A stretch of DNA of 64,000 nucleotides, from positions 13,380,062 to 13,444,061 of the forward strand of contig OU612074.1 in the NCBI GenBank assembly GCA_914767715.1, written 5' to 3'. Numbering within the stretch: the first letter of the stretch is position 1; each line of letters begins with the position of its first letter. Shown here one piece after another: positions 794 to 56,400 of this stretch. The notes beneath the pieces were generated by a model, which saw nothing but the letters and a program-made list of their open reading frames with translations, searched no databases and was not told the origin of the DNA. The DNA is from Membranipora membranacea. Lineage: Eukaryota > Bryozoa > Gymnolaemata > Cheilostomatida > Membraniporidae. Both the position numbers and the translations under genes were made by a program.

Positions 794-3700
794 TCATTGA
801 ATGTTACATGCACAGGACCGTTGATCTGATTCGACTTCACGTTGTTTAGCCTGAGAAGCAGTACTTTTAGCTTTGGGTTGTTTACGGGACACCCCATCCT
901 TTGCCCACATTCCACTATCCTCGTCAGGATTTTGATCTATATCCAGTCTGCATATTTTATCAGTAGAATATTCAGCGCCGTCATCTGTATTCATAAATAA
1001 TATAAGTCTGACTATCGGATCTATCTACATGTTATGGAAGGAGACACTAATAATGCATACAATTGTATGTTGTTTACATACTAAGACATAGGAATCGTGC
1101 TCACAGTGTTTAAAATGAAAATCCTGAGTCGGTCTGTTTTTGGTAATAAAGACACCCAAGGCATGTTCTTTTAAAGATGATGATTAACTTAGTGTCGAAG
1201 TCAACACTGCTTGCAAACCATCCCTGAGATAGGAATCTCTCTGCACCGTAGCGACAGTGCCACAAAGTGGCCCAATTTGTATTTTGCCTATAGAAGCTAA
1301 CTTTTTCTTTGTGCAGAGGGAGTGACTTTTCAGTTTGAGAACTCAAGCAGGTTTGAATTAGTTCAGTCGCTACGGTGCAAAGATAACCAACCCGAAGTGA
1401 TTGGTTACACATGCACAAAGTGGTCTAAGCCTCATCTTCAATTAGAAGAAATACCACCAGTGAGACGACAGTGCACTATAAATATCTAATTGTGGTTTTT
1501 GTTGATCATAGAAAAACAAGTTTGAAGTTTAGAACGTACCACCAAACATGTCATCCATATCTCCAAAGTCAATCTGTCGTGCCATCTTATCTGTGTCATA
1601 GTTCCCGCCTACAACACAATATACAGAATCGTACCTCTACATATTATGAATGGTGAAGTGGCACAATCAGCAGTCAGACAACAGGCCTGTTGTAACTTAG
1701 AGCACTTGTTTTTTGCTGCCAGTCATTAGATTAATTTCCAGATTATAAAGCCTGGATGTTATATGATTTTAAATAAAATGATTAAAATCAGGTGTCTGAT
1801 CACATGCCAAATCCCGAAGAATGGGCAGTGAAATATTAGTTGCCTCAACGGCGAGGCAGCAATTTCTGCGCCAGGCTGTTCTCTGTTTGCAGGCAGGCAG
1901 GCCGGAGCACACCTAGGGGTCAACCAAACTCCAGTAGTCGATAGACTGCAGTGGGATTCGAACCCACAACCTTCAACACTTGTATGCTAAAGAGATGGCG
2001 CTCTAACCACTGAGCCACCTCCTACACCTACTCTTGGGTTCCAAACGTATCTCAAAATATTCAGTTTGTTTGGAATAGAAAGTCCTGTTAACTAACCAGA
2101 TAGTATTTGGGCTCCGATCATATCATCCTCCACCTCTATAATCTGTATCCTGTCCTTAGTGAACACACACCTGGGACCGTCATACAGAGGGAACAGGTAC
2201 AGCTTCCGCAGTCTAGTCAGAGTTTTAATACATATAACAGTCTGACCTCCGATACTATGAGCTGGATACCGACGAGACAACTCCATACTGGTACGCCTAA
2301 CTCTCTCCTGCATCTAATATATAACATATATGACTCCAGGTATTATATAATACATATAAATCCTGCTACGTAATAGTAACAGCCTCTATGTGAAATCTCA
2401 ATTCTTTTAGGAAAATCAAGGTCAGGCTTTATAATGGGATCAGCATGCAGCATTGATTTTAAAAAATAATACAGGTTTTTTTGGGCTGAATTTAACACAG
2501 ACTGTCATTGTAATGCGCTTAATTTGCATAATTCCGAAAAACCATTTTGTTAGTTTTGTAACACAGACTTACAATCTCGTGCAGTGAGTAGACATCTCTA
2601 TGAGCTGAATGTTTGAGGAATGTAGCTACAAGAGCTCTAATAAACAAACTACCATGTGCTGTGTTCCTTATCGACGAATAAGCTGTAAACAATCAATAAT
2701 ACTGTAAGTTAAATCTGATGTTAGATTAGGAGAAACAATTTGTCGGCTGATTTTTCACCTAAGCCTACAGAGGTAGGTTAGCGTTTGATTCTCGTGGCTG
2801 GTTGAATGGTTGATGGTGAAGTTGTTAGTATTGGGTATTAAATGCATTACAAATGGATAAAACCTGATATTTCTACATAACAGTTAACAAAATAATGGCA
2901 AGTTTTCTCTCAATCATCAGCATTTACTTTGTAATTTAATTACCCAAACGAATAATGTTGATGTCATTTTCTTAGATATTTAAAAAAAATAGCCTATTAC
3001 TTTCGAAGCTTGATTTGATGATAAGTAGATCATCTACATTCAGTGACTTATTCATGCCATGCTGCTGCTGCTGCTGGCCGGCCGCTGAATGACCGGCCGC
3101 TGACTGTTTGTTACCCTCAGGCTCTGGCTCCACTCTCTCCTCCTCATGGTGACCACCTCCTCCAAAGTCTGCCTTCTCTATATATCAAAGAGAAATGTCA
3201 AGGTCAACTATAAAACAGGTACTGATGTGCTATACTTAATAATATTCACTTCATGTAATCACCAGGAAGTTCAGTAAATATTAGCTAAAGTTTAGTTTGG
3301 TAAATTTTGGGGTGACTACCTAAGGCGGGAGCTTTTACAAAGTGAAGAGTTAATATTGGCGAGCGATGACTTTCACTTGTTCAAGCCAATACCTTACTCT
3401 GCTAGGGTACATTCTATCAATGACCTGACCTCCTTTAGAACACCACAGGGCACTCCTCAATCAAGTTTGACCCAAACATTAATACTAGAATAAGGATTGC
3501 ACAGTACAAGCTTTTCAATGAAGTTATTAATCCTTAGTTAATCCAGATGTTAACAAACTAATCTAAGTGATTGCTCTCCTACCTCCAGCGCAGGCCTGTA
3601 TTATGAGAAGCTTAGGTTTTCCCTCCATAGCAGGAAAGTTACGACCAGCTAACAGCTCACAGATATCAATCAGTCTCACAGTTTTCATGTCTGAGCCGTA

Positions 3701-6700
3701 GAAGCAGTCGTTCTCAGTACCATGTGACATGATAACGAGAGCGAACATACCAAAGTCCTCGTGTAGGGGGTCCTCAGTCTCTGCTCTCACTGTGTCCAGA
3801 AGTTCCTGTTATATATAAATTTTACAATCAAACACAGCTGATACTAAAATATTATGTCATCTTATTGAGGTAGTACATATTGGACATTTTTGTACTTTAA
3901 ATTCAGCTGATGATAAGTTTATTGCATGACATTTAAGAAGCGTCTATACCCAGTATTCCAGTAAGAAGACTGAGAGACCGGAGGCTGAAGACGTAAAACA
4001 AAAAGGGCAATGGAGAGATCAATTAAGCCTCTCCCATCCTCAGAGATAAAACGAGTTATTACAAACAACACCCACCTTCGCAGTGAGATCCTGTAGTTTT
4101 GTTGTCTCAAATCCGAGCTCATAAAATAGTCTGTTTATATTCCTGAGGTCGACGTCAGATCCTTCTCTCCTCGCTTCATCTCTACCTTTAAAGTTCATGT
4201 TATTTATTATAATAGCTCTACCTCGCTTCGGTGATGTCATCTTATATATCTGTAAAATAAACACTGAGAATCTATGTATGATACCTTTTATTGAAAGAAT
4301 TTGGATAAGAATTTATCAACAAACTTGTCTCAATTTATCAAACTAAATAGAACACTAACATCCATCAGGGATGATTGTGATCTCGAGCATCTGCAAGACC
4401 AGCTGCAGCTGTTTTTTTTTATCAGAATACACGGAACAAATATGAAATGATATGAGCCACAAAGTCAAGTGAGCTATTACAAGTGAACGCTGTGGATTTT
4501 AATGTCTTCTTATATAAATGAAGAGACAAGCAAGGACTTATTCTTCAAAATATCTTTTGAGATAGTTGGGGGGATGGCGAGAAGAGAATCAGCCTATGGT
4601 CACTCCAGGGTGACTGGATATTACCTTGTCACTATTAGTGTAGAGTTGTCTGATGGACTTGTTAGTAGTTCTCTGAGGTCTGAAGCTGATATCTACAAGC
4701 TCAGGGGTGGCAGGTACCAGATAGTCGTATCCATCTGATATAATACTGATATCGTCTCCTCCTGACGACAACGGCTGAGGTACAGTGGAGGTCTTCTGTA
4801 TACCCGGTATATGTGTACTGACAGGAGGCTTGCTCTGTATATCACCATCACCAACTACAACATAAACACAACAGGTTAACCATTACCTGGTGACGATGTA
4901 TGATGGTATTACAGGGAGCACGGAGGAGTATTTGGCCGGGAATATACTATAGTTCACATAAACAAAGAGAACTCAACACCGCTGTTTTATATAATGAAGA
5001 TCTCTTAAACATCAGTATTTGACAGGTAAATGCTGAGACAAGTCATCTAAGGTCATTCATGTATTGCCGTAAGTTGGTTAATAAGGGTGGCAACCCCAAA
5101 CCCATCTCAGAGTAAAAGGAATTTTGGCATAGGTGAATTGGGACTTGGAAGTTCAATACCCATTTAATCAAAATGGTATAAACTTGCCAATAGTAAAATA
5201 AAGACTGAAAAAGCTCTAAACTCTAAACTGTAAACTATGTACAGTTGACATACCGTCTTTTTTGGAATTCTGCTGCCTAGCTTTGTGGAGATCTGCAGCA
5301 TAAATCTCCAGATTCTTCATTCCCTCATCGCTGAGTTTACCTGCATAGTACACAACAAGATGATTAGCAATTTGATACAACCCCTGTTCACATTTAGTAT
5401 ATGGAACAACATCTATCAACATAACCTTTACAGTCATAATTTTATTGACGTTTTATATCTTTAGCCTAGAGGAGTATATATTAGTTTAGTTCAGCCAGTT
5501 GATGTGACTTAAAGTTAGCTGGCGATTATTTTTTGGCTTAGTGAGGCTGGAGTTCGTATTGACTGGGAGAGAATTTTGAGAATATTTGAGAATTCTTTCT
5601 CTAAGGTATGCATGTATAGGTGTATAGGTGTTAGCTAAGCAGGAAAGACACCATGAAACACTTACAGGGAAACATGAGAGCTTTGAGCACCTTCCTATCC
5701 TGACCGCACACAGTAACTTCTCCTCCATCCACCAGAGTAATCTCCTTCCCCTTCTTATACTTGGGAGACGTGGAGCACCACGAGGGGTTGATTGTCTTCT
5801 TAGGGTGCTGTGTACCCTTCATGAGGCAGTGAGGACAGTAGAACACACACAGAGGTCTCGCAGCTTTCCAGTGTCTCAGCGTCTCATCTATGGAGTTGTT
5901 GATGATTTCCACGAAGAGCTGCCATGTTTTCTCGATGCTTGCTAGGTCTGATATGACCTGTATACTGACAGTACGAGTATTGGAGTCGTGGGTCAGTTGT
6001 ATGTTTGTGTTGTTGTGGTAGACTGTGATGCCGTTCTGCTTGACTATCGCCTGATCTGATTCATCAGGAAATCTCTCCAACAGGGCCAGAGACATCTGGT
6101 GGTAGACATATCTAGGTAAGGACAACCCCCCAAACTTTAGCTCAGCCTTCAGGTTCAGATACTGATCATCTAGCAGTAATGAGTCGTTCTGGAAGCCTCT
6201 ACAGAAGTAAGGTATGATATAACACATGGCACCGCGGTGAGATACGGGACCATGCAGCAGTCTGAATGTTTCCAGTAAGCTTATAGCTAGAAGCAGATTA
6301 TCACCCTTGAACTGTGATTCCTGCTCTATCAGTCTGTGTAGTAGAATCTGATCCATAACTCCCGTCTCCTGAAAGTCTGACACGAGCTCCTCATAGTAAT
6401 CCTTCTCTATCCTCGTACCCTCGGCACTTTTGAAAGGTTTGAACTTCTTACGCCTCTGTTCCCAGATGAGCTCATCAGTGTGATGGAACAGAACCCCGAT
6501 GAGATCCGTGACGGCCGAGATCTTATGGAACACGTGGTTCTGTAGAGCGATGATGTTCTTATACCAGAGAATCCTCCCGCTCTCGTGTAAATATCCCAGA
6601 ATAATCTCCAGCTGAGCTCTGGAGACTTCTAACTTCTTCTGAGAGAGAATCTTCTCGAGCTGCTCGATGGTGATGGAGCCGTCCTTCTGCTGCTCGAGGA

Positions 6701-9700
6701 TTTCGCCGATGATCTCCCAGATATCCGGTATCTCCTGAGAGAACTCCATACAGTTAGACTCGAGAGCGGTGAGTAACTCACCGAATGTCTGATAGTCGTT
6801 ACCCACCACATACACATCCTCTACAGCTACAACAGGCCTGTCAGCGTCAGCAAGGTGAGCGATCTGCTCAAACTCCGCCTCCTCACCGCTCTCATCCAGT
6901 ATGAGATCAGACTTCAGCTCGTTCATAGTATCGAGAAACAGCTGTCTGAGAGAGGAGAACTCCTCATCATCCACCTTATCTCTGTGTGTGAGGATTAGTT
7001 TGGGTGGTCCGAGGTTAGGGCAGCCTATATACATATGAGACATCCAGTCAAAGCCTAATCTCCTTACTGACTCAGAGATACCTACTTCGCTGTCTTCAGA
7101 TAGGCGCTGAAACTCCTCCATGTTGATCACTATGATAGGAATGCAGTTTTTTCGGAGTGTGAGCTGATATGCTAGCTGATATATGTCATGTCCGCCCACA
7201 TCAATGAATCTGAGTATGGTGCTTTCTGTGTGTACGCTCTCTACATTGAAAACCTTAGTGGCCTCGTCCTTAGCTTCATCCGGCCCTCGATATGTCAGTA
7301 CTCTCTTCTTAGCCTTACTGTTCTGTAACGTTTTGACTAGACTTGTTTTGCCAGCTAACTTTCTACCTATAACTGCCACCACAGCGATGGGTAGGTTTTT
7401 ACCCTTTCCTTTGTTCATATCTATGTAGTATTGTTTGATAGGGAGCCAGCCTTGTGAGCAGATAGAGAATGGAGGGGAGGTCAGGCTGGGGCAGCCCTGG
7501 AAGCTGGCATACTTCATATCAGTGAGAGCTAATAGGCCTTCATCTAACTGTGTTAGTGTTTTCACATTCTGCATATATAGGCTCTCCAGATTGACCATTG
7601 AGAGGATCACCAGCGGCAGACACTCAAATGAATTTCCCTCCAGACACAACGATTTCATCTTCTTCAGATTTTTGAAGCTGTAAACAGTAAAGTAATTGGT
7701 CTACAGAGGATTAAAAGTTTTGCCACCAACTGTAAAAAACACTATCAACTGCTAATATAGATTCAAAAAATGCAGTAATATCCTACATGTTGTAATGGCT
7801 ATATACCTGTTTGGTAGAGTTTTAAGAAAGCATCTCTTCAGTGTAAGGCTCTCCAGTTGAGTTAGTTGTGACAAAGCGGCTAAGTTCTCTTCAGATAACT
7901 TTGAGTCAGATATACCCAGGTCCACCATGTTCACAAGCTTATGAAAGCTAATAATAAAACAGGGTAAATTCATTATACATCGTTGATTAGATGATGAGCA
8001 AGTAAATTTATTGAAAAATATTACGCATTCAACACAGATACACAACAGATACAGTACATATAAAGTACAGACACAGTATGGATGTAGTGCAGATACGGTA
8101 TGGATACAGTTGAAAACTGAAAGTGATTTTTGAAAATCAAATTGACTTGGAGTAAACGAGCAAAATTTTAATCAGACTGTCGTTACCATCAGGAGGGCTG
8201 GTGGAATTCTCGATGTTACCAGATAGCCCAATGATAGGGAGGAGACTAGACTTATATTGTAGGTCATGTCAGCACCCATAGCTATGGAGCAAGAGATATT
8301 GTTCTGAGAATTGAATTCACCTTGACAAAAAATAAAGAAAATTGTAGGAGAGACATACTTATGATCTTTGATCTGACATCTTTTGAATGAGAGCTTTCTC
8401 AGATTCGTAATCCCACTGATCATGTGAGGTAGACTGACTCTGTTGTAGAAATTTTTATCTCCGAGATATAAAACCTCCAGGCTCTGAAGGTCTTTGAAAC
8501 TGTATTACAATGAGAAAGAGATGGTAGTTCTCAGGGCTAAACATTCACCATCCACAGAACATACTTTGATCGTCGTGTTTTTGACACAAGAAGGGATCTC
8601 GCTGACAGTTCGGTCATGTCTGCTTCACAAACAGTCATATACCGTAAAAAGGCAGTAATGTATTCACAGGGGGAAAGTTTTCTGAACATTTGTGCAGGCT
8701 TGAAAAAACAAGAAGATTTTGACAAGCTTACATTTGAGCAACCACATCACATTTGTTTTACAAAAACATACACAATTACATAAAACTGGAAACATTATAT
8801 CTACACGTAGAAACAATTTTCTCTCTTTGGCCTTCTAACTTATTAAGAGCAGCCTGAGCACAAAATTCCAAGAATCCACAAAATCCCTGACAACACAACA
8901 CCAGCCGTGTGCCCCACAGCAGCTAGTTGGGACTGTGAAGGCTACGTGCCTGTTGTTGAAGGTGTCTGTTGTATTAACTGTATGTTCAGACTTACTTGTC
9001 AGGTAGAGTTGGCAGGTGACATTCATTCATATTTAGTGTCTTCAGTTTGGTTAACTTTGTGATGTCTTCAGGAAATCCGAACTCGCTGAAATTATTACTA
9101 TCAGCAGATAGCTCCTCAAGATTCTTCAAGTTTTCTATGCTGAAAAAAGATGTAAGCATCAATGGAATTATAGATACTGTAAATAAGCGGCCTATAACCC
9201 TGATTCCACAACAATTTTAGTCTGCCTCTATATGTTTTTCTAACACATCCACAGTGATCTTGAGATTGTGAGTTTGCTCAGGCCAATTGTTTTTCCTTCT
9301 AAGAACCTTTGAAGATACAGATATGAAATAATGCTTTACCTGGCAGGAAGCTTCTTGAATTCACATTTTCCGAGATTGAGTATTTTGAGGGAGGTGATCT
9401 GACAGACTGACTTGGGTAGTACACTCATAGGATTGGCTCGTAGTGATAGGTTCTCCAGATTAGTTAGCTGTGAGAAGCTGGATAAACAGGAAATAATTCG
9501 AAAACAGTTAACAACTTTACACAACTCATTATCTAATGATTTTTCTCATGTTCAAACTTGTAACTTGTGATATATTGATATATTTCAAGGTCAAAATGTA
9601 ACGCCAAAATTACGTCTAAGATGGAGGACCAAATACGATACACAAGAGTTTGCCAGGTGCTTGAGCAATCAATTATAAACTATACTAATAATATCAATGA

Positions 9701-12570
9701 AGAATATCAGAGATTGATGTATTATATCTACCTGGCTGGGAGATCCTTGAGTAGACATGATTGTAGATCCATTTCTTTGAGTGATGTCATGCTGCACACG
9801 ATAGCTGGTAATGTACCAAAGGCATTATCTCTCATATCTAATATCTCTAGTTTTGTCAGCTTTGCTAAACTGAAACAAAGAGGGAAAGATTTCTGATAAA
9901 TGGGATTTCACCATACATATCCTCCCTTTATGTCTACGATATTGACACAGACATGATGATGAATATTGCAACCTCACATAAAACACCTAATGATCATCTT
10001 GTGATAATTATTAAATACATTATAGTGATGTGAAAATAACTCCAATTTTGATTTCGTAAACGAGAAAACAATTAGTCAAGTCAAGCAACTGTTTTCAATC
10101 TCTTTCCGCAGTATATACTTTTCAAGCGGGCACCCAATAGTATATGCCGTTACCAGATTGTGAATGTGTTGTATTATACATCGAGGAGATGTTCAATTTT
10201 TCACTTTCTTATGACTACACGAGCGCAGGACACAATTGCATTGGCAGTGACAATTCCATGCTAGGACGTAGTTCATTGGTAGACTTAGACACCATTTATG
10301 ACAATTCCATGGCAGGGTGTAGTCCATTGTTAGACTTACACACACCATATAATGTACAGATTTAGCCCATTACCTATCAGGTAGTTTAACAGTACACCAT
10401 GACAAGCTGAGGCTCCTCAGATTTATCAACTCTCCCACAACTTCAGGTAGTCCATCAGCTTTCATATCATTACCACTGATAGATAACGACTCCAGATTAG
10501 TGAGCTTGCTCAATCTACACACATGAAAAGTAGATATAACTGATTACTGCATCCCTAAATATTACAAAGTTAAAATGAAGTGTAATGATTACACTGCCTG
10601 AAGAGCAGATCCAGCATATCATATACATGATATAGACTGTGGAGACATGCTGAACTTTCAAGTCGCTGAAATTACATCAACATTTTTGGAGAGCATGTAG
10701 CGTGGGATTATTGGTTGGGTTGGATATTGCTTCTTCGGTGTTATCTACTCATGTATCACTGTTGTGAATTTTTTGATAGACCAATGTGCTTGTGGTTTGA
10801 TTTTGTTTCGATTGGCTGATGGGTTTTGGTTTGTTGTTGTGTGGAGTTGTTTGTTCAAACCAGCACACCCAACCTGAATAGATAACTCCAAATTGTTGGA
10901 CTGAATCCGAGTCTAGAAAGCATACCACATGCTGTGGTCTGGGGGGGGGGGGGGGGGTCTGGGTTACACGTACAGATAACTTGATAGCATCTGGCCTAAA
11001 GTGATCAGTTGTGGTTCTTACTTTTTGGGAAACAAGACAAAGCAAATAATTTCGAACATTGAAAAATCTCAGTTTGAGAGATTATGCGTAACAGTAAGAG
11101 GCAAAGTAGTGGTAGTGACCTACTCTTTAGGTAGAGTGCTTATCCCAGTAGATGCTATATTAAGTGTTTTGAGAGTAACACAATCACATATGGTAAGTGG
11201 TAATTCTCCTAATCGATTCCTACACAGAATCAGCTCTGTGAGGCTGTGAAGTGATGGTATACGACTGTAATAGAGAAATAACAGGAAAACATCAAAACTC
11301 TATTTCAGAGGTGAAATTCATAAAATTGTATGTCACTCTCTATCTCCCCTTCACTTTGTCAGTCTCAGTGTATGCTGTGTTGTGGGCCAAGTTTGGTCCA
11401 TTTGCCTGCATTCGGAGCTGATCCCACTTCACTTGTCACGCCAGTTGTGGCGTACCCAGTGGATAGGGAGCCACTGGAGAGCAGCCAATTTGGATTAATC
11501 TTGATGGATCTAGGTGTGTTGTGTGAAAGCTGGTACCACAGGGTAGAGGTAGAGGTAGCGACAGATAAGACAGAAAGACCTGTTATAAGTTTGGACATAA
11601 TCGAATTACGAATACCAATTATAATGGTAGCATAAGTATATAAGGGCCACCCAGATGCCTTACAAAGTCTTTATCTGTTATAAACTGAATAACTGAGCAT
11701 CTGAACCAGATCTCTGTTTTAACAAACTATTAATCAGGGCTCTTAGCAGTATCACTGTATACCCATACCTGTTGATGAGATTAGCGATAGCTGTTGTATC
11801 ATATTTCCCGTTACTCATATACTGGAGATGGCGCACCTCCGGAGCCCATTCGGTGAGGAACTGAGGGATGGTCATCGCAGTCTTTATATGAGTAACAGAC
11901 TGTTTGTGTGTCTCCTTTAGTACCTCTTCTCTTGTCTGGAGTGTAGGCTCGTATAATGTGGTCCAGTCCACTCCCTCGGGTAGTTCAGCCTGACCAGTGT
12001 GCCGGTACCACAACCAGTACTTTCCTAGGGGATTAAAACAAAGCTGGTTGAATTACTCGAAACTTGGAGGGAGTCAGATGTGGTCTATGTATATGGGTCA
12101 GTCATAAGGACTTGTGACTTTTAGATTCAGATTCATTTCCAAGCACCAGCAGTCATTACTGACATTGAACCGTGTAAAATTCATTCCCTTGCCTTACGGG
12201 GTCAAATATTCTAAGGTAGTAACAGGAGCCCAAACACACTGCTCTACAATACACACAGTAGGGCATGGGTTGAGAACACATGTAGTCTACCGGGTGTAAC
12301 TCATTCAACATTGGAAACTTCTGCTTCATAACTTTCCAGCAAGACATGAAGTTGATTCCCAAAGTGAGAGTAGCGTATTAGGCAATGCTTTTATACATAT
12401 TTTGGATCATGTTTTTGTATCTGCAATACATAGTTTCAATAGCAGCATTTTCATTAGCATCTTTGATAAAACAAACCATACACAACATTACTTACATTGA
12501 TTTACACACTCTATTTGGACTTGACTTTAGTGTCAGAGAGTTTAGACAACCTACCCGCTGCTGAAGACAT
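794..12570 (-). CDS. LRR-Roc-COR-caspase fusion protein (1581 residues)
   Basis: Nineteen exons read on the minus strand: 12555-12570, 11769-12024, 11124-11264, 10374-10514, 9732-9869, 9340-9477, 8996-9139, 8359-8499, 7807-7947, 5666-7677, 5254-5340, 4625-4854, 4076-4249, 3583-3805, 3001-3177, 2573-2682, 2097-2313, 1540-1608, 794-984. They sum to 4746 nt with matching phases throughout. Residues about 7-90 are an unrecognised N-terminal region, and 91 to about 470 are leucine-rich repeats. The Roc GTPase carries GRKLAGKTS (about 523), DVGGH (about 578) and THRDK (about 649). A COR domain and a Cys-containing end reach about 1089. After a helical and Ser/Pro linker comes the caspase: p20 with MSHG (His1281) and IIQACAG (Cys1325), then a Gln-rich linker and p10 with SSIRN. 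Arg in RREGSDVD, Gln in QAC and Arg in SSIRN match the Asp-binding pocket of true caspases. An acidic tail ends at TGA 794-796. Likely cytosolic: a Roco sensor controlling a protease (inference). Confidence 0.85.
1242..1379. repeat. 138-bp element with 14-bp terminal inverted repeats
   Basis: TGCACCGTAGCGAC at 1242-1255 is repeated as its exact reverse complement at 1366-1379. The inside has no coding sequence. It looks like a small MITE in the last intron of the Roco-caspase gene. I see no clear target-site duplication. Confidence 0.5.
1840..2037 (-). repeat. tRNA-derived SINE-like sequence
   Basis: On the minus strand a pol III A-box (TGGCTCAGTGG, in 2005-2030) and a B-box (GGTTCGAATCC within a GTGGG/CCCAC stem, about 1951-1967) are spaced as in a tRNA. 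No anticodon stem can be drawn between them, so this is not a functional tRNA. The sequence continues to about 1840 as a GC-richer body, as a tRNA-headed SINE would. It lies in the second-to-last intron of the Roco-caspase gene. Confidence 0.6.
7807..11264 (-). other. LRR exon cassettes of the Roco-caspase gene
   Basis: Seven consecutive exons of 138, 141 or 144 nt (11124-11264, 10374-10514, 9732-9869, 9340-9477, 8996-9139, 8359-8499, 7807-7947) all begin and end in the same phase, with an AG/N or AA/N codon across the junction. Each encodes two LRRs of the form LTNLExLxLxxNxxxxLP followed by LKxLxLxxCxxxxLP. The symmetric phase means a cassette can be gained, lost or skipped without breaking the frame. 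The repeats continue into the start of the large Roc-COR exon. Confidence 0.85.
11387..11505. mobile_element. short MITE-like repeat, family A, copy 1
   Basis: It begins CCAAGTTTGGTCCATTTGCC and ends with a degraded reverse complement (CCAATTTGGATTAATCTTGA). The same sequence, including an inner GATCC...CACTTGTCACGCC block, recurs in reverse orientation at 45498-45603. It sits in the Roco-caspase intron between 11264 and 11769. Confidence 0.55.
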
Positions 12571-13715: not shown

Positions 13716-15696
<1,981 letters not shown>

Positions 15697-22829: not shown

Positions 22830-25800
22830 TTATCTGGGGCACATGGCATGTCTCCCTCCATCTACCAGTAAGTGAGTTCCAGTTGTGAAGCTGGCATCAT
22901 TACTAGCCAGGAAGGCTATAGCTTTAGCTACTTCAGAAGCCTCCCCAACTCTCCCTAAAGCGTGGGTTGTCTTTGATCTCTCTAGAAACTACAAGTCAGA
23001 AAACAAGGTAACATCATGATAAATAATGTTTATGTTTACATGACTCAAGAGAAAGTCAGTGCAAGTATGCCCATATGTATGTATGTATGTATGTATGTAT
23101 GCACATGAACATATATGCAAAATTAAGTATGTATGTATGCATGTATGCACACTTGCACACATGGGTTGTCTTTGATCTCTCCAGAAATTAATGTTAAAAG
23201 AAATTTATTCATGTAAACGCACATGCATGTATGCATTACATGTATACCTATATGCACAAAAGCTTGTGATGGTTGTATTTGATCTCTCAAAATATGCATG
23301 TATGCCCATGTGCATGTGTGTATGTTTGCCCATTGCATGAAAGCACATGTGCACACGTGGGTCGTTTTTTAACTCTCCAGACACTGACGCAAGTAATAGA
23401 AAATTTATGCACAAATGCATACATGCACATATATGTCTGCACATGTGCATGTATGGACATGAGAATGCATTCAGAGATGCACATATGCATGTACACAAAT
23501 ATGCATGTACGTACACACATAAGCATGTACTCACATATGCATGTAAATCACATAAGTATGTGCGCACATATGTATGTACGTACATATGATTGTACACACA
23601 TATGCATGCATATATGCACACATGCATGTATGCACAGATGCATTTGTGAATGTTTGCCCGCATGCACATATGCATGTCTGCACATGTGCATGTACACATA
23701 TATGCATCTATGCACATATACATGTTGCACATAAACATATATATATGCACATATGCATAAGTGACTGTATGCATCTTTGCACATAATATGTATGTATGCA
23801 CATATGCATGTAAGCCCGCATGCACATATAAAGTCATGCATGTATGCACATATACATGTATGCACATATACATGTATGCACATGTGCATATATGCAAATA
23901 TGCACATATAACGGCATAGCAAGTAAACAGAAGTATGCATGGATGGTAGACATGCATGTCCTATTATAGTAGATGATGTATATTCTTACAGCTGCATATT
24001 GTTCAGGAGTCTGACCACCTCTTTGATGTACATTAGTGAGAATTACTCCAGGGCTGTAAATAATACAAATCAAGCCAAATAATATGATACTGTAGCGCAT
24101 ACAGCAAATCAATAAGGGCCTAGTGGGTATATATTATTTGGATTGCTGTTTATTCAGCTAATATATCAGGCAGTAGATAAAAATTAGTCTCATCAATTAT
24201 TTCCATAGAGCCACCCTTAGACTTAAGCTGCGTTTACATGTGAGACAAATCGGCTAATAATAACAACTCCGACACAGGTCACCGATTTGACTGACCGTGT
24301 AAACAGTTAATCTGTGTTTAAATCGGTGTTTAAATCTGTATTGTTCAAAATCGTTCACTTGTGACAAGTCACAAGTGAACGACAGATCTTAACGATTATG
24401 AATGGTTCAGCCAATAAATGAGTATAAGTAATGATGATTGATCATTATATTTCTCTCACCCTTTCCTTGTCCTTAGCAGCAACTTGTACAGCAATATAGT
24501 TATAACAGTTATTGCTGCTGCTGCTATTATAACATCTTCATCAGATGATGAATCATTACTATACATGACTCTCTGTCAGTCTCAGTCCCACCCTCCCTGG
24601 TCTGCAGGGGCACAACAGTAGCCTTTCAACTAGGGAGACTAGTGAAGGAGACTCCACTCCCCAGCTATGAATTACTAACTAGTTACTACTAGTTACTAGC
24701 TAATACTACTACTGAATAAACCAACTAGTTGTCTCACTAGCCAATCAGAGACAAGTTGAGTTGAAAGTTTGTGTTGAAATCGGTTAGGCATGAACAGTGT
24801 GTAAATAGCGTATCGTTGACATGTTGACAGACAACGATTATAGAGCAGATTCATAATCTGTGTTGGACTTGTTATTATTAGCCGATTTGTCTCACATGTA
24901 AACGCAGCTTTAGAGCTGAGAAATCTTTTAAAAACCTGCTTTCAATCCACAAATTGAAGCAAATCAACAATCACTAAGGTTCCATGCCCCGAAAGACGAA
25001 AAGATGGAGGACCTAGGGCAGTTTAGACCAATATCACTGCTAAATGTAGAAGGCAAGATATTCAGCGTTCTGGCAAAACGCCTGACAGATTATCTTATGA
25101 ACAATGGATTCATTGATCCATCAGTTCAGAAGGCAGGCATCTCAGGATTCCCTGGACGTCTTGAGCATGTGAGCATGATTTGGTCAGCAATAAAATCTGC
25201 TAAACAAGCTAAATCAAACCTTGAGGTAATCTGGATGGATTTGGCCAATGCCTTTTGTTCTGTACCGCACAGCACCGGGTGCCTGACAGGCTAAGGGTTA
25301 TGGTTGAGCGCTACTATAAAATGTTTAAAATGCGATTCACTACTAAGAACTTTACCACGAGCTGGCAGTAGGCATCCCTATGGGTAGTGCTATATCACCT
25401 TTGCTATTCATCATGGTGATGGAAATAGTTATACAAAATTTACAAGGCAGTGTGAATGGGATCCAGGTTGCGAATAACCAGATACTACCGCCGATGAGGG
25501 CCTTTATGGACGATATTACAATAATATCACGAGATAAGGCCCAGGTTGTAGCTTCCATCAATAGACTGCATGAGTTGATAGAGAGATGTGCGATATGATT
25601 CAAACCTAGCAAGAGCCGGTCCCTGTCTTTGTGTAAAGGCAAACCTGTACCAAATACCTTCTTCATAGGAACAGAGCGTATTCCCACGCTTGCAGAGCAG
25701 CCTGTGAAGACCTTAGGAAGATGGTATAGTTTACCGATCACAGACAGGTTTCGCGGAAACGAGGTGAAAAAACAACTGATTACAGGGCTGGACGCGATTG

Positions 25801-28297
25801 AAAAATGTGGTCTGTCTGGTAAATACAAAGCCTAGATTCTAAACTTTGCACTTCTGTGGCCTCTGACAGTTTATGATATTCCCCTTACACCAGTTGAGAG
25901 AATGGAGCAAATGATTAATAAGCACATGCGTAAGTGGCTCGGAGTTCCAAGGAGCTTCAACACTAATGCACTGTATGCCAGTTCGTTTACTCTTTCACTA
26001 CCTATGAAATCGCTTGTGGAAGAGTACAAAACATCAAAAGCGAGACTGGATATGATGTTGAACGAGTCACGAGACCAGGTGATAAGGGAATGTGCTCCAA
26101 CACTTGACACTGGTAAAAAATGGTCTGTCACAGAGACTGTCAGAGATGCCAAATCTCAACTGGAGATTGTGGGTGCTGTGACAACTGCACGCCATGGCAT
26201 CGGCTGGGAAGCAAACCGGTGGTTCTCAAAGGAAAGCCCAAAGGTAGTTGATGAGGTGCGCAAGATGGAAGAGGAGCGCCGCCAGACACAAGCTGTAGGC
26301 CAAGCCCAACAAGGTAGGTGGACTTGTTGATAGTCTGTTGAGCAGCGTCAGCACAAATGGACAGAAATGTGGTCAATGGAGCAACAAAGGACCAGCTTTC
26401 TGGTTGGTGCAGCTTATGATCAACTACCGACCCCGGCGAACTTGGAACGCTGGAATTGAGAACTCGAAATGCGTCGAGTGCTCGACCAAGGGGACACTTC
26501 GACATATTCTGTCGAATTGCCCGCAGAGCCTGGCAAGATACACTTATAGGCATAATCAAGTCCTGAAAGTGTTGTGTAAATATGTCACGGAGAAGTGTGA
26601 ATATGCTAATGCTGGTGGTGAAGCGCGTGAAAAGATTTTACGCAAAAGGGGATTGATGAACAGCGGAAAATGGCAGGTGAGATGCGACCTCACAGACAAG
26701 CTCAGCATGCAGCAGCAAATTGTGATCACGAACCAAAGACCAGACTTAATCGTTTGGTCTGACAAAGAAAAAGCACTAATACTGATGGAATTGACGGTGC
26801 CTTGGGAAGAAAATCTCTCAAACGCGCATGAGAGAAAGCTGACAAGATACGAAGATCTGGTGACACAATGCCAAGACAAAGGTTGGAATTGCGAATTATT
26901 CGCAGTGGACTTTGACTGGTGTATGAGTTGCACTATGCTCAATGTGGTGAATTCAAGTAGCGAACTATGGCACAAGGGGTGGGTGCCTTGACGATAGCGA
27001 CTTTGCGCCAATGAGTTGATGGAAAGCAAACCTCCCTGCACTAGTTTGGCTTAGAGTATAAGCATGAGAGTGATGGGGCGGACATTATTGCACTGAAACA
27101 ATGAAGAGTTGGCAGCCTCCCTGGTTGCGCAACAGCGTAAACACACCAATTATGTCAAACCACCGAAACTTACAAAATGCACTGAGGGATCGATGAGATT
27201 GATTGAGATGCTCATCAACACACAGTGGTGGCTTCATGCTGCTGGGGCCGGCCATGAGGAGGTTGTACTAGAGAAGGCCTCGAAACAGCGCTTGACTCAT
27301 GGTTTCTAGCTGAAGACCTGTGTGTTGTGCAGTGGTACGCGCACCACTGCATGTTGTATCTACACTCCATTTTCGAATTGATGGAAAAAACCATAGGACT
27401 GCTGCAGTTCCTGATTTTGGGCTTGGTGTGGGTGGGGGGTGGGGGCTGGGAAGGATGGAAGCTTTATTTGCTTTGCAGTTCCCAATTTGGCTGCACATAC
27501 ACTTTTAACTGCCAATGTTGGATCATATATCTTACCTGAAACACTTTCTGATTGGTTGGGTCATATTGACACATTTCAAAGCAACATCACAACAATATGT
27601 TCCAACCAATCAAAAAATGTTAGTGTTATGATAAATGATCCAACTTTGGCAGTTAAAAGTGTATGTGCAGCCAAATTGGGAACTGCAAAGCATATAGAGC
27701 TTCCATCCTTCCCACCCCTCACCCAAACCAAGCCCAAAACCAGGAACTGCAGCAGTCCTATGGAAAAAACATGAAAAACATTTGCTGCGGCCGGGACCTG
27801 AACCCCGGTCTCCCGCGTCAATGCCATTTGAAGTCATTGTGTGCAAGCGCGCTAACCATTCATCCGCCTTACTGTAATTATGCGATTTAACACGGTATTT
27901 GAATTTGCGTCAAAAATTGTCGATCGGCTGACTTTAAGTTGACTTTAATGCCATTTCCATGGATCGATAACTCCCTAAATCCTTACGAAATCACAACATG
28001 GGACATTAGTGTATATGAGCTCTGTAACTTACTTGACACTGTTGACTCTGACTTGTTTTGGAGCCAGTTCTAAAGCTATACACTCTGTAAACCTGTCCAA
28101 GGCTGATTTAGACATACAGTATGCTAACACTCCAGGAAACTGTAATATTGAATGGTGAAAAATCAATATCTAAAAATCTTTCTCCTTTATTTCAAAATAA
28201 ACATAAATATATATACACACATTTGTGCAATAAAGTGTCATATATTATATATCCCACTATTGTACCCATAAAAACCCTGGACAATAAGTCATTCATA

Positions 28298-37200: not shown

Positions 37201-40200
37201 TAGCGTTGACACAATTCCCACAATGCAACTTCAGCCTTAGCACAGGACGCCAAGATGCGGGTCTGTTCACTAGGATAAACACAAACGTTGACAAGATCTT
37301 TTTGCGGATATCACCTCACTTTCATCATTATCCTTGCCAGCTGGTACTTTCTCAGGCCCCTTTTTTCTATTCTACAAGCTCACCAAGACACCACCAACAA
37401 AATATTTAAATATTAAAATTACCCCATATTATAGAACTATAAATTGTTACCTCACCAATTTTCAATCTATATCCCTAAGATTTTCAAAAGAAGATAATTG
37501 ATATTTGATGTCACATGTTTTGTTTTAGGATGTGGATCCTTCACAAGAATGATAGTCAATAAGATTGGAGAAGACTGGGTGTTCTTATTCATGCTCGGAG
37601 CTATTATGGCTTTGCTTAGCTTCACTATGGACTATTGTATAGCCAAACTTTTAGAAGGTATTTAAAATCATTACATTGAGTTTAAAATGGTTCCATGAGT
37701 GTATTTCTCCCGACTATCTATGATTTCATGCTTTAATCTATGATTTCATGTTTTTAATCTATGAAATCCTTGGGTTTTCCCCAATTTCACTAGAAAATGT
37801 ACAAAGACCTGGCTCTTTGGTAACCCTAACCCATTATTTGTTAATCAAGTTGTTATATTTTTTTCTCAGTTGGATATTGCTATAGCCAGATACTGTGCCA
37901 ATTTTGCAATATTGTGACAGTTTGTTAATTGAGCATGAGACAACAATGATTCTGACATTTGGATTTCCTCTACACCATATAGTTGAAAGTGGAAGGCTAC
38001 CTGCAACAACAAAGCTCTCAAATCATATTGGTGATTGCAAAAAGTTTAAGTTTCACAAAATTGTTCAAACAAATAAAAATAACTTTCTCCCCAATCTATA
38101 TCCATTTGTATCTCATGGTGATTGTTGATTTTGTTTGTTATTTTCTGTAGTCTGTGAGTAGCTGTTATCATTGGTGTGCCCTGAAGTGAAGACATGACAT
38201 GTCATATATCAGCTCACTCCCTCGCTCATATCTCACCAAACTTCTATAATCCCTGTTCTGGTGGAGGATTTTTGCCTTATCCCAGCATACCTCGACATAC
38301 TACTCCCCTATATCGCCATCTATGCCCATATTTTTCCACATGATACTACCTCTTCTGAGTCATAGAGTGTGTGTAGAATGTAGATGATATATGAGCCTCC
38401 TCTTTTCTTCCTGATTTTGGATTATGTAGACATCAGGACAGGAACTTGTTTCCAGTGGAGAAGGTCCGTCTGTACTCATTGTTTCACTCCGTATATATCA
38501 CCAGCTTCTCATAGCTTAGCACTTCTCATCTCCGTACAGCGCCTGAAACGCATATGAATGATTGTTTTGTTCCAGCTGCTGCATTAAGATAGGACGCTTT
38601 TCTTGCTTCTCTCTGATGGTATAGAAGTTACCTACTTTATAAGATCGCTTCATTATTCCTCTGCCCTGTATAAGTCTATCTTCTCACTCCGTATCCCGAG
38701 GCGATAAGGAATATAAGCCTAGGTCCACAGTTTGCACATACATGTACATGTACATGGCTATGTCAGTTAGGTGAAGGATGAATGTTGAGCCCTGTCGATA
38801 TTCTGCGTTTGCCGTGTTGGTTGATTGTTGATAGCTGTTCAATTCAAACAGCCACCCATTTCATCATGGATCGATTGCTTCATAGTATTTTCACTCATAC
38901 CTAATTCATTGTATTCAAATGTGCTTACTGATTATTTACTGTATACCCAGCCCATGACTTGGCAGACTTACAAACATACTTACATATATACCTGCAGCCC
39001 ATAAATTAGCGTACATACATATATACTTACATATATACTTACAGCTCATGAGGTGATATATGAAGAGACAGGTAGAATACATCCAGCCTTCTCATTTATA
39101 ACATGGATAGCTTTCCCTGTTGTACTTATACTATTCTCTACTTACTTTGTACATCTGGTAGCACCAAACGCTATAGGTGAGTCATTTCTCATAATAAATA
39201 CCCTAGGAGAGTAAATATATGCAAGAATTTAGTTGGTTGGGATGGACTTCATAATCAGCTATCACCAATACTAGCCAGTTAGGATGGGAGCTTGTATGAA
39301 GTAAAGAGGGTATCTTAATTCAGCTGATTTAATTTGATGTGAAAATTCTCTATTTGCAGCTCCAGCTCTACTGCTTCATTACTTTATAGTTCATTGAATG
39401 ATGTTCTAGGATGTTTAGCCTGCCGTAGCTTAGTTGTTATAATGTCACCATTGTTTGTTTTTACCAGGCTCAGGTATACCAGAAATGAAGACAATCCTAC
39501 GAGGCGTTGTACTCAAAGAGTATCTCACATTCAGAACTCTGGGTAGTAAGATGGTCGGTCTAACTACTTCACTAGGCAGCGGTCTGCCCTTCGGTAAAGA
39601 GGTAAATCTTAATTCTTCTTTCAGACTAATTGTTCTGTATGAAGTAACTTGGTAACAATAGGGGTTAGTGTCATAAAAGTTCTTTTCCCTATGGCTCTGA
39701 CTATGTGCCATGTATCACGGAAATTGAGTGAGTAAGGATATTGTTAGCTTTTCGTATTTCTGAGATACTCAGGAATGATCTAGTAGTAATCTCTGTTATG
39801 GAGTAATCACAATTGCTTTATTTGTATTATTCAGGGACCGTTTGTACATATAGCCAGTATAGTAGCGACATTACTCAGTAAATGGGTCAGCTCATTTCGT
39901 GGTATATATGAGAATGAATCTCGTAATAATGAGATGTTAGCTGCAGCAGCTGCAACTGGAGTAGCCTGTACATTCGCTGCACCCATAGGAGGTAGGATCC
40001 CATCAGATAACTCTCTGTTACGTCGATGTATCCTAGTTTGCAGCCATTCCCTGATTACCAACTGGCTGTTACAATTTGGAGTTATTATCTCATTGAACAA
40101 GTTGTTCAATGAGATAATAACTCCAAATTATATGAGTGAAAGCACACAATTTATTGACAGATGGCTATAAAACGATTTGTATATTACAGGCAGGTGCACA

Positions 40201-53406: not shown

Positions 53407-56400
53407 CTAGTTATTCTCTATGAACAGAACTGCAGCTAACAGAATGAGTGTGTAGATTGGTAGATGTTGAGTTATGACGGCAAAGTTGGGAGTTGTCCTT
53501 GCTGTAACTCCCAGTGACTCATAAATCATTTGATCATTGGACTTGACCTCCTTTTCGAGTGTAACAGCTCCCTCCGAGATCTCCGCAACCTAAAGTAATA
53601 ATATCTCGATGAGAGCTGGGGTTGTCAAGTGGAAATTTCCACAATAGCAATGTAACGAAAAAGCAGAGATCCGCAAAATCTGCCTTGGAAACCTCTCTGG
53701 AAAGTATAGATCATTTTCATCATGAAAAGTACTCTGGTTTGCTTTCACTGCATCAATAAGAGTTTCTATGTTATAAACCTCTCAAAACCATTTTCTGAAA
53801 CGAATGAGAACAGAGATGTTTGCGAGACAGCATTTCTTGTTTGATCTGATTTTCTGTATTATGATACCCGTGTGTGATACTAGATTTATTGCAGTATTTG
53901 CTAATTGTTGAATGCCCTTCAACTATGGTACTAACTCTGGAAGAACTAGTGAAGACCTGCAAAAAGGGGAATGGTCCCCAGTAAACTATATGAAATTTTT
54001 TTGTTCATAAATTGTTATTTAGTCTTGTACCAACCTGCGTATCGTTTGTCGTATCACAATCAAATATACAGGCATCGAGATAAAGCTCTGGTTGTGGTAC
54101 TGAAGCACAGGCCTGCTCACATTCTGTGTTAGATCTTCTCTTTCTACCAGTCACAGAATCTGTGGTGACGTCTATCTCTTCTGGGCATCCTGTTATTAAT
54201 AATCCTAGAGAAGCATCGAATACTTCTACTCCCATCCGCACTGTGAAGTAATATGTGTGTCTGTAAAAATATAACAAAAACTCTTCAATATCACATGGAT
54301 AGAGAGAGAACAACCACTCTAGTAACTGTTGGGCAGAAAACTCGTCACATTATTTTGTTATGGTAAAGCTAACAAACAGACCTATACTTTTTGAAGCCGA
54401 TCAAGGCTCCTGACCTCAGATCTGTCAGCTGGACATTATCCCCCATATTATTTATCCCGATTCTGTGTAAGACTGTCCCGCTACCGAAGTTTACTCCATT
54501 GACTTTCAGAGATCTGGATGGTTTATCTCCAGCTCCTGATGTATAATAGATACTTGTCCCCAGTCCTGTGAAAGTTACATTTACCTACAGAGGAGCAGAG
54601 TATCAGCGTACCGAATCAAATATGAAACGGTTTGCGGTTTAGGTGTGAATGAAGATATTGTTTTTCTTTTAGATTTAATTAGTTGTTGAGTTGGGAAGAG
54701 AGTCAGGCCTTTGTATTACAGTTTTGATTAATTGATGAGAGCAGATATACTTCTTACCTTAGTAATATAACTGGCCTGACAATTTTTACATACTGCCTCA
54801 GCAAAAGCTTTCAACTGGAAAAACTCATTATTTATGTACGTCTGCCATCCTATGACAGAACAAGTCTGGGTTCGTGTAGCCTGGTATGTGATCATATGAG
54901 GATCTCCAAATACACTGACTGATGCTCTTTCGGAGGAGGCAACAAAGGTCTGTATAGAATAAAACATGCTACTGTATCAGTATACCAAAAATATAAGTTG
55001 ACTGATTGTCTTTTTATTTATTCCTAGGTTACCTTTGAATATTAAGATTAAGAAAGTAGTACATAGCAACAAAAACGAGGTAGACTGCTGACGGTGAGAA
55101 CCAAAAAAGAACTGTCTGATTATTGGTTAAGCAGAAGTTAAATTTTTCACTAGTCTCGGTGGCAGCGTTTGTTTGTAACATGGACACATTGATATGATTA
55201 TGATCGAAGGAACAAAACTTCACATACTGGGGCTGTCGATATTGACTGCAAACTGTATCTCCTTCCAACCCTCTCCAGATGGCTGATAGCTCTCTTGTGA
55301 TCCTGAAAGAATGTTGGGAAAATCCGCTGCCAGCCTCTGAATAGACAGCGAGATGCAGTGTTTACAAACCTGTTAAAAGAGCATACCGTTATGTTAGTAC
55401 AATTTCATTCCATCAATATGTAATTCATCCGTTGGTCTCATTGCTAAAGCTCCAAGTGTTTTTACAATATTTTGCTGTTTAGGAAGAAACAGAAGACTGG
55501 GCTGCCCCTGAAGAGGATGTAAGGTGCCCTAAATCATCATACTGAGAATGTGATGCATCCTAGAAAACTAGAATGCATCCTAGATGTGTGAGGCCATAAA
55601 AGACCTCCTGAACTGTGTGTGTGCAGCAAGCTGCCAAAACTGAAGCTTGCACTAATCAGTCCTTGGCACTGGCAGTGACACTCTCATCTTAGCCAATAGG
55701 CCGAGAAGTTTTTTTTTATCTCATTTATTTTCAGCATATTCTTGCAGTACCTGATAAGTCTATCTGCGACAGTACCCGCGCCTGCTGTGGAGCTGACAGA
55801 CACCAGGAGAGACAGGTCTGCAATCAGAGACTCCAACAAAAATGTGCAATTAGTCTGTATTATGTCTCCTAGCTGCTGCCAAACTGCATCATTAAACACG
55901 ATAGAGTCGTGTCTAATGTCAAAGAGATAGGGAGAGCTCGTGTTCTTATATATACCAAACCAGTCGAGTACACTGCTGAATACCGAGCCGACATCATCAC
56001 TCAACACTACAAAATAAACAGGTACTATTTCAATACGCCAACCAAGAAAGCCCGCAGTTTGCACTAAAGATTTCTGAGCTTAGTTATTGTAATTATAATT
56101 CTGGAGAAGAGAGACTTACTTTGCAGAAGTTGAGGCTTGGCGTTTGTGTTACTAGAGCAATACTCGTCTCTAACATTAGAGAGAAAGCTCATGATAACCT
56201 CAGGTTTGTCTTCTTCTATACAGTTATCATCCATCCATGTCTGCATACACGTCACAAACGGCCTCACGCCGTAACTAAAACAGTATACCATGTATCTATA
56301 TCATAAATAGCAACATGTGAGGATAACTCCTACACACTCCTTATGACTGTTGCTTTTTTCCTTTATGTATTGGTTGGCACCAAATTCTCTTCATTTGTGG

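Follow-up and report, generated by a model that had tools for sequence, protein, structure and literature searches.

A predicted Roco-caspase gene with LRR, Roc-COR and caspase domains in one chain, and its expanded family in the bryozoan Membranipora membranacea

Gene structure and domain architecture

The stretch of Membranipora membranacea DNA analyzed here (contig OU612074.1, positions 13,380,062 to 13,444,061; 64,000 nucleotides, hereafter the window) carries on its minus strand, from position 12570 to 794, a gene whose predicted product consists of leucine-rich repeats (LRR), a Roc GTPase domain, a COR domain, a linker, an animal-type caspase and a short tail, in this order. We consider it probable that this single bryozoan gene encodes a one-chain intracellular death receptor and that it belongs to an expanded family of Roco-caspases. 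The LRR-Roc-COR-caspase architecture is well supported and from it we infer the function, namely that a single mRNA yields a protein that senses a ligand, switches on GTP and acts as a protease, with cell death or immunity as the outcome. A joined gene of this kind had been proposed in a preliminary description of the same DNA, and that observation is confirmed here at the level of sequence.

All 19 exons could be rebuilt, all introns are of the GT-AG type and one frame stays open throughout, so that the exons join without phase conflict as had been stated. The outer boundaries at 794 and 12570 and the exons 5666-7677, 5254-5340 and 4625-4854 were likewise reproduced. The joined product, however, has 1579 residues followed by a stop codon and is two residues shorter than the 1581 given earlier. 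Exon 1 (12555..12570, 16 bp; this and all following exons on the minus strand) provides the start codon and the residues MSSAA(G). This start was picked because it is in phase with exon 2, and exon 1 is the least certain 5' part of the gene model. Exon 2 (11769..12024) encodes the N-terminal region, residues 6-91, including a WYRHTGxAE motif in common with protein P0004 from Watersipora. The LRR array is modular. Exons 3 (11124..11264), 4 (10374..10514), 8 (8359..8499) and 9 (7807..7947) with 141 bp, exons 5 (9732..9869) and 6 (9340..9477) with 138 bp and exon 7 (8996..9139) with 144 bp each encode one LRR pair and are all bounded by phase 2-2 introns. The last LRRs reside together with Roc and COR on the large exon 10 (5666..7677, residues 419-1090).

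In the joined protein, Pfam recognizes LRR_14 (E 1e-34) and Peptidase_C14 (residues 1204-1428, E 2.2e-37). The Roc match (residues 519-612, corresponding to 7098..7379 as computed from exon 10; E 1.4e-5) reaches 25.8 bits and stays below the cut-off of 27, which is exceeded when the exon 10 open reading frame is scored by itself (27.7 bits). COR-A (residues 736-818, 6480..6728, E 1.1e-4) and COR-B (residues 960-1045, 5799..6056, E 8e-4) are both found below the curated cut-off, so that Roc and COR are weak if judged by Pfam alone. The Roc-COR assignment is nevertheless backed, because the predicted structure of the homologue P0006 matches LRRK1, LRRK2 and the C. tepidum Roco protein in fold and because a 36-row family profile retrieves C. 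tepidum Roco (3dpu) from the PDB at 1.3e-21. The G motifs of Roc are readily seen (GRKLAGKTS, DVGG, THRD), and the P-loop, DxGG and THxD positions are invariant or nearly so in family alignments. With such a Roc domain and COR directly following it, the protein can be placed in the Roco family on the basis of its sequence. No NACHT or NB-ARC ATPase domain was matched by Pfam in the protein at E <=0.01.

The caspase starts in exon 13 (4076..4249), which encodes the first part of the large subunit with Arg1223, and continues in exon 14 (3583..3805) with His1281 (3724-3722), Gln1323 and Cys1325 (3592-3590). An intersubunit linker (exon 15, 3001..3177), the small subunit with Arg1392 of the P1 pocket (exon 16, 2573..2682) and the end of the fold with RKLYLFP (exon 17, 2097..2307) follow. 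The fold is accordingly present along with the catalytic pair His1281 and Cys1325 and with Arg1223, Gln1323 and Arg1392 of the P1 pocket; these roles we assign from the alignment and from caspase biochemistry. In keeping with the preliminary description, the Roc G motifs and COR precede a caspase that has both catalytic residues, and all three residues binding an aspartate at P1 are in place. In sequence and fold the domain matches animal caspases (CED-3 and caspase-3 in the PDB). A bacterial origin was considered and found no support, the matches being animal caspases in a comparison that held no bacterial caspase-like sequence.

Related proteins in other animals

The protein searches were seeded by shared short exact words, so that homologues in other phyla could escape. 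Residues 500-1480 as a query retrieved one protein from Watersipora subatra (36% identity over 99%, E 6.3e-162), while the caspase alone listed only P0002 and missed P0001. A rotated profile with the caspase placed first returned 38 proteins at E <=0.001 among 7994 candidates scored; P0001 lay outside the length limits of this search. Altogether, Watersipora subatra has six annotated LRR-Roc-caspase proteins (P0001, P0002, P0004, P0006, P0007, P0008) and Bugula neritina has one (P0016, with an incomplete caspase). The search of related species for Roc-COR and caspase in one protein, suggested earlier as a check, thus succeeded for seven annotated proteins. Two further Watersipora proteins, P0012 and P0017, consist of LRR, Roc, COR and linker and end where the caspase exons would start. 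They are possibly decoys, isoforms or decayed copies.

Outside the bryozoans, P0036 from the annelid Owenia fusiformis (1019 residues) is a Roc-COR-caspase protein with a complete caspase (Pfam 2.6e-61), in which no LRR was found. One source names it a serine/threonine protein kinase. An entry from ENA, P0037 (1698 residues), combines Roc with a C-terminal caspase; by eye, its N-terminal half can be read as a pair of degenerate large subunits of caspases. A Dredd-like caspase (P0038) and an LRR-Roc-COR protein without caspase match (P0039) also belong to the set. The remaining 26 proteins are Roc-COR frames of 562-713 residues from the lgn, ena and jgi sources.

Family expansion in the Membranipora genome

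Contig C10, to which the window belongs, is one of 18 in an assembly of 339 Mb. Scanning this assembly for caspases yielded at least 145 pieces in at least 132 loci, pieces less than 10 kb apart on one strand being joined; some of the pieces may stem from decayed copies. The loci are often clustered, especially on C1, C3, C5, C9 and C10, and make up a very large set for an animal. We fetched 34 stretches, which, apart from the window, correspond to 31 distinct loci (L026=L005, L033=L001, L034=L007). They are not a random sample, since 20 were chosen from the 145 rows to spread over the contigs and mostly looked multi-exonic. At 19 of the 31 loci the first caspase exon is preceded, at a distance of 480-1575 bp, by the end of a COR exon that shares its strand. 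This group comprises 16 of the 20 chosen loci, in which Roc-COR precedes the caspase (L009-L016, L018, L019, L021-L025, L028), and L003, L004 and L006 among the first eight. L017 shows a fragment of the Roc-COR region only, and no COR exon is present in the stretches seen of L020, L026, L027, L001, L002, L007 and L008. Six caspases in single open frames served as a control and none of them has Roc-COR within the roughly 5 kb upstream that were inspected.

All 19 COR-caspase loci keep Q[AS]C[AS]G as well as a His-Gly motif. A copy seems in some cases to be damaged or divided in another way, as at L022 and L019, where the Roc-COR frame is broken into two pieces. LRR-pair frames with the borders of phase-2 exons, 138-144 bp in length, were obtained for seven of eight matches inside the window and for 17 of 28 outside it. 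As far as sequence tells, the window gene is a member of an expanded family and not an accident. An assembly of the exons by chance was also considered and is ruled out by the 36%-identical homologue spanning Roc-COR, linker and caspase and by the 19 similarly arranged loci in the same genome.

Linkage of COR and caspase

COR and caspase are connected by exon 11 (5254..5340), for which a helix (LxxxExxxLxxYL) is predicted in a homologue, and exon 12 (4625..4854), which encodes an acidic linker with an IISD motif and a SIRQLY segment ahead of the caspase. Three lines of comparative evidence, a conserved donor, a shared linker and the layout of the paralogues, argue for one gene, which had been claimed, as had an intact caspase. 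COR ends with PC in 25 of the 26 Roc-COR frames from the lgn, ena and jgi sources (FPC or YPC in 20 of these), after which the frames diverge; only P0035 stops earlier. The commonest readings, PCK and PCE, result when T|GTAAG or T|GTGAG is translated in frame, and the splice donor at the COR end therefore looks conserved. Within Membranipora, PC is read at 18 of the 19 loci and PS at the remaining one, L016. In most annotated relatives COR is followed by the shared helix, which P0017 lacks, and then by the acidic linker. The latter is joined to COR even in the caspase-less P0012 and P0017. In relatives that bear a caspase, a SIRQLYTNSDK-like segment stands ahead of it. The ATG of MTSPKRG in exon 13 was examined as a possible gene start and rejected, as the conserved segment precedes it in those aligned relatives that reach this far.

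Frames homologous to exon 12 were detected between COR and caspase at three of the 19 loci (L003, L023, L025; the latter two are close copies of each other). They score 15.3-15.5 bits against a linker profile to which the window sequence contributes, and in direct alignment to exon 12 of the window only 0, 1 and 1 of 5000 shuffles, respectively, were as good. Because these frames match, it is supported that exon 12 is coding and placed between the two halves.

A number of observations weigh against this reading. The linker profile finds no exon 12 match at 16 of the 19 COR-caspase loci, whereas its match of 25.0 bits at L020 (from about 1680 onwards in the orientation of the caspase, pieces of which follow at a distance of several kb) has no COR exon in view. 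The junction of exons 11 and 12 lies in a poorly conserved linker, and an AATAAA is present at 5446 in the intron after COR, a signal tempered by the frequency of such motifs here of about one per kb (13 in 13 kb). No COR end is in view at 12 of the 31 fetched loci, and the motif check in the genome covered the catalytic caspase exon only rather than whole rebuilt genes. The Watersipora proteins are predicted gene models. Several annotated relatives are incomplete: missing are the exon 13 piece and the final part of the small subunit from P0016 of Bugula, most of the small subunit from P0008 and the last strand from P0007, and P0012 and P0017 stop right before the caspase. Finally, P0001 continues after its caspase (residues ~1230-1869) with FN3 stretches, six in number, and ends in a hydrophobic segment, perhaps a merged neighboring gene or a membrane-anchored variant. 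This FN3 region resembles FNDC3.

Evolution of the fusion

In a caspase tree of 11 rows, the six bryozoan Roco-caspases form one clade (99/98). The other rows were CED-3, caspase-3, the Dredd-like caspase, Owenia and P0037, with no bacterial caspase-like row. A Roc-COR tree of 22 rows contains a supported split (100/99), with the window gene, Watersipora P0001, Bugula P0016 and L013/L014 on one side and four Watersipora and 13 Membranipora rows, grouped by species, on the other. From this split and the grouping according to species we infer that the fusion predates the separation of these bryozoan species and has multiplied since. One origin with Owenia is not rejected by the approximately unbiased (AU) test when Owenia is placed with the bryozoan caspase clade (AU p 0.41), nor is a clade that also takes in P0037 (AU p 0.09). 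The Roc-COR parts are hardly alike, the bryozoan profile giving 35.8 bits for Owenia and no match for P0037.

Proposed mode of action and alternatives

Switching and dimerization of Roco proteins and the activation of initiator caspases by proximity are established behaviors, and it is on these that the following proposal builds. A ligand would be bound by the N-terminal LRR array, whereupon the Roc-COR switch would change its nucleotide state and dimerize. The two C-terminal caspases, tethered by the helix and the flexible acidic linker, would thereby be brought together and become activated by induced proximity in the manner of initiator caspases. The active caspases would cut substrates after aspartate, and cell death or an inflammatory signal could ensue without any death-domain adaptor.

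Instead of staying tethered, the caspase might cleave its own linker at [ILV]SD and so be freed from a Roco sensor bound to a membrane or a complex. The motif occurs in the linker of ten out of ten bryozoan protein rows and is about 15 times denser there (13 in 718 residues) than elsewhere (14 in 11817), the P0006 model assigns low confidence to the linker, as it would to a disordered stretch, and a CAAX-like CNIQ ends the window protein. The CAAX tail, though, is present in no aligned relative and is encoded by tentative exons, L003 from the same genome has ISE in place of ISD, and P0012 and P0017 retain the motif without having a caspase. Acidic SDxE sites fit the kinase CK2 equally well. 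In view of ISE in L003, the motif may be a site either of self-cleavage or of the CK2 type, and we rate release by self-cleavage as unlikely.

Non-apoptotic roles of caspases are established, and a genuine fusion could encode a non-apoptotic protease for local remodeling, for example in polypide regression and budding of the colony, in which case Roc-COR would act as a developmental switch. The sequence contains nothing that specifies death. The at least 132 caspase loci, the species-wise expansion of Roco-caspases and the modular LRR exons, on the other hand, look more like recognition genes than a developmental switch, and a remodeling protease appears unlikely. That a Roco gene ending after COR and an adjacent caspase gene were duplicated together and merged by gene models is very improbable: the AATAAA at 5446, the ATG of MTSPKRG at the start of exon 13, the lack of a caspase in P0012 and P0017 and the merging of genes by annotation that P0001 may exemplify would fit this idea, but the donor conserved in 25 of 26 relatives, an acidic linker found on COR in P0012/P0017 and on the caspase in the others, the linker frames at L003, L023 and L025, the conserved segment upstream of the supposed caspase start and a join recurring in seven annotated proteins from two species all contradict it.

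Returning to the one-chain death receptor, a still wider picture can be drawn, which is possible although we regard it as doubtful. For recognition inside the cell, cheilostome bryozoans might rely mainly on dozens to more than 100 one-chain Roco-caspases. Such a system would be the equivalent, built on Roco proteins, of NLRs and inflammasomes, and its LRR repertoire would vary as phase-2 exons with LRR pairs are duplicated, shuffled or skipped. It might serve immunity or the distinction of self and non-self in the colony, and the same fusion might have arisen or survived in annelids.

C-terminal tail and genomic surroundings

The C-terminal exons 18 (1540..1608) and 19 (794..984), the latter ending with CACNIQ and the stop codon, are less certain than the remainder. 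This tail is absent from all relatives that were aligned, and an in-frame stop at 2092-2094, just past the donor of exon 17, offers an alternative protein end. The two exons are similar to each other (21 of 5000 shuffles did as well). Both contain a motif like GxxYxTDKxxR, followed in exon 19 by a lysine-containing stretch and CACNIQ. Beyond 2092, the minus strand has a single AATAAA or ATTAAA up to the end of the window, an ATTAAA at 604. A plus-strand open frame without Pfam match ends downstream at 513 and, if it is a gene, leaves little space for more minus-strand exons. We take the terminal CNIQ, tentative as these exons are, to be CAAX-like and the N-terminal MGAKSS of Watersipora P0004 to resemble a myristoylation site, and it is possible on these grounds that Roco-caspases are anchored to membranes.

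The intron before exon 18 harbors a tRNA-like, SINE-like (short interspersed nuclear element) sequence at 1850-2040, of which no second copy was seen in the window and in which ARAGORN calls no tRNA. Upstream of the gene, a short-chain dehydrogenase-like gene on the same strand ends near 13719. Remains of non-LTR (long terminal repeat) retrotransposons are located at 61187-62842 (minus strand) and 24932-26991 (plus strand), with RVT_1 reverse transcriptase matches at 61190-62095 (2.2e-33) and, under the cut-off, at 24932-25291 (2.6e-5); Pfam found no match in the frames neighboring them. An exon of a voltage-gated chloride channel (PF00654, 4e-9) lies at 39790-40170 on the plus strand, and a weak match to the RGM C-terminal domain (4.2e-4, under the cut-off) at 54005-54349 on the minus strand.

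Comparison with known systems

Animals usually divide sensing, switching and the activation of caspases among a receptor, an adaptor and a protease, which interact via death-fold domains. A large animal family that fuses sensor, switch and protease would lend itself naturally to testing induced proximity, and bryozoans may trigger cell death by one-piece receptors without adaptor. Roco GTPases such as LRRK2, DAPK1 and MFHAS1 would gain a clear readout tied to the switch, and the effect of Roc-COR on its effector would become directly testable by protease assay.

The Roc-COR core is common to the window protein and to LRRK1/LRRK2, MFHAS1 and DAPK1, and LRRs are shared with the LRRKs and MFHAS1. 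The Watersipora relatives are in fact named MFHAS1 by their source, yet a caspase follows COR in P0002, P0004, P0006, P0007 and P0008. Initiator caspases (CED-3, caspase-2/8/9) have the complete fold, the His/Cys pair, the P1 pocket and a long N-terminal part in common with it but carry CARD or DED before the protease, where an LRR-Roc-COR receptor is found here. In the part of Civiero et al. drawn on here, Roco proteins with CARD or death domains are described for Trichoplax (Civiero et al., 2014, PMC4104024), which also tie the Roco core to the cell-death machinery. In LRRK1/LRRK2, MFHAS1, DAPK1 and the Trichoplax proteins, COR is followed by a kinase, nothing or a recruiting domain, and not by a caspase as seen here. 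The shuffled LRR exons of brown algal ROCO genes, as far as covered by the portion of the paper used (Teng et al., 2024, PMC11378527), resemble ours in being of unit length and phase 2, but they measure 72 bp instead of 138-144 bp and do not hold two LRRs per exon; the word caspase occurs 0 times in the main text of that paper.

The preliminary description knew of no Roco protein with its own caspase, a statement that must be given up. According to the part of Kaur et al. considered, bacterial LRR-AP-GTPase-COR proteins carry at least 24 different C-terminal domains, caspase included, and the kinase is named as the metazoan (DAP) case (Kaur et al., 2021, PMC8195603). In the open-access literature searched, mostly at the level of titles and passages, no report of an animal Roco-caspase was found. 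Bacteria are known to have the plan, but in the literature searched an animal family that combines an animal-type caspase with modular LRR exons and has expanded widely does not appear to have been described. NLR-like logic in one chain on a Roco core, as envisaged before, seems to be the right description for a protein predicted to unite LRR, Roc-COR and caspase: LRR sensor, nucleotide switch and caspase output are like those of NLRs and inflammasomes, but the switch here is a Roc-COR GTPase instead of a STAND/NACHT ATPase, and the protease is in the same chain. A close parallel, within the limits of that portion of the source, is offered by the bacterial LRR-Roc-COR-caspases, which agree in domain order, caspase effector and the many paralogues per genome. 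They are predicted to counter invaders, whereas we are dealing with an animal gene, an animal-type caspase and modular LRR exons, and an animal would thus share the LRR-Roc-COR-effector plan of bacterial conflict systems (Kaur et al., 2021, PMC8195603).
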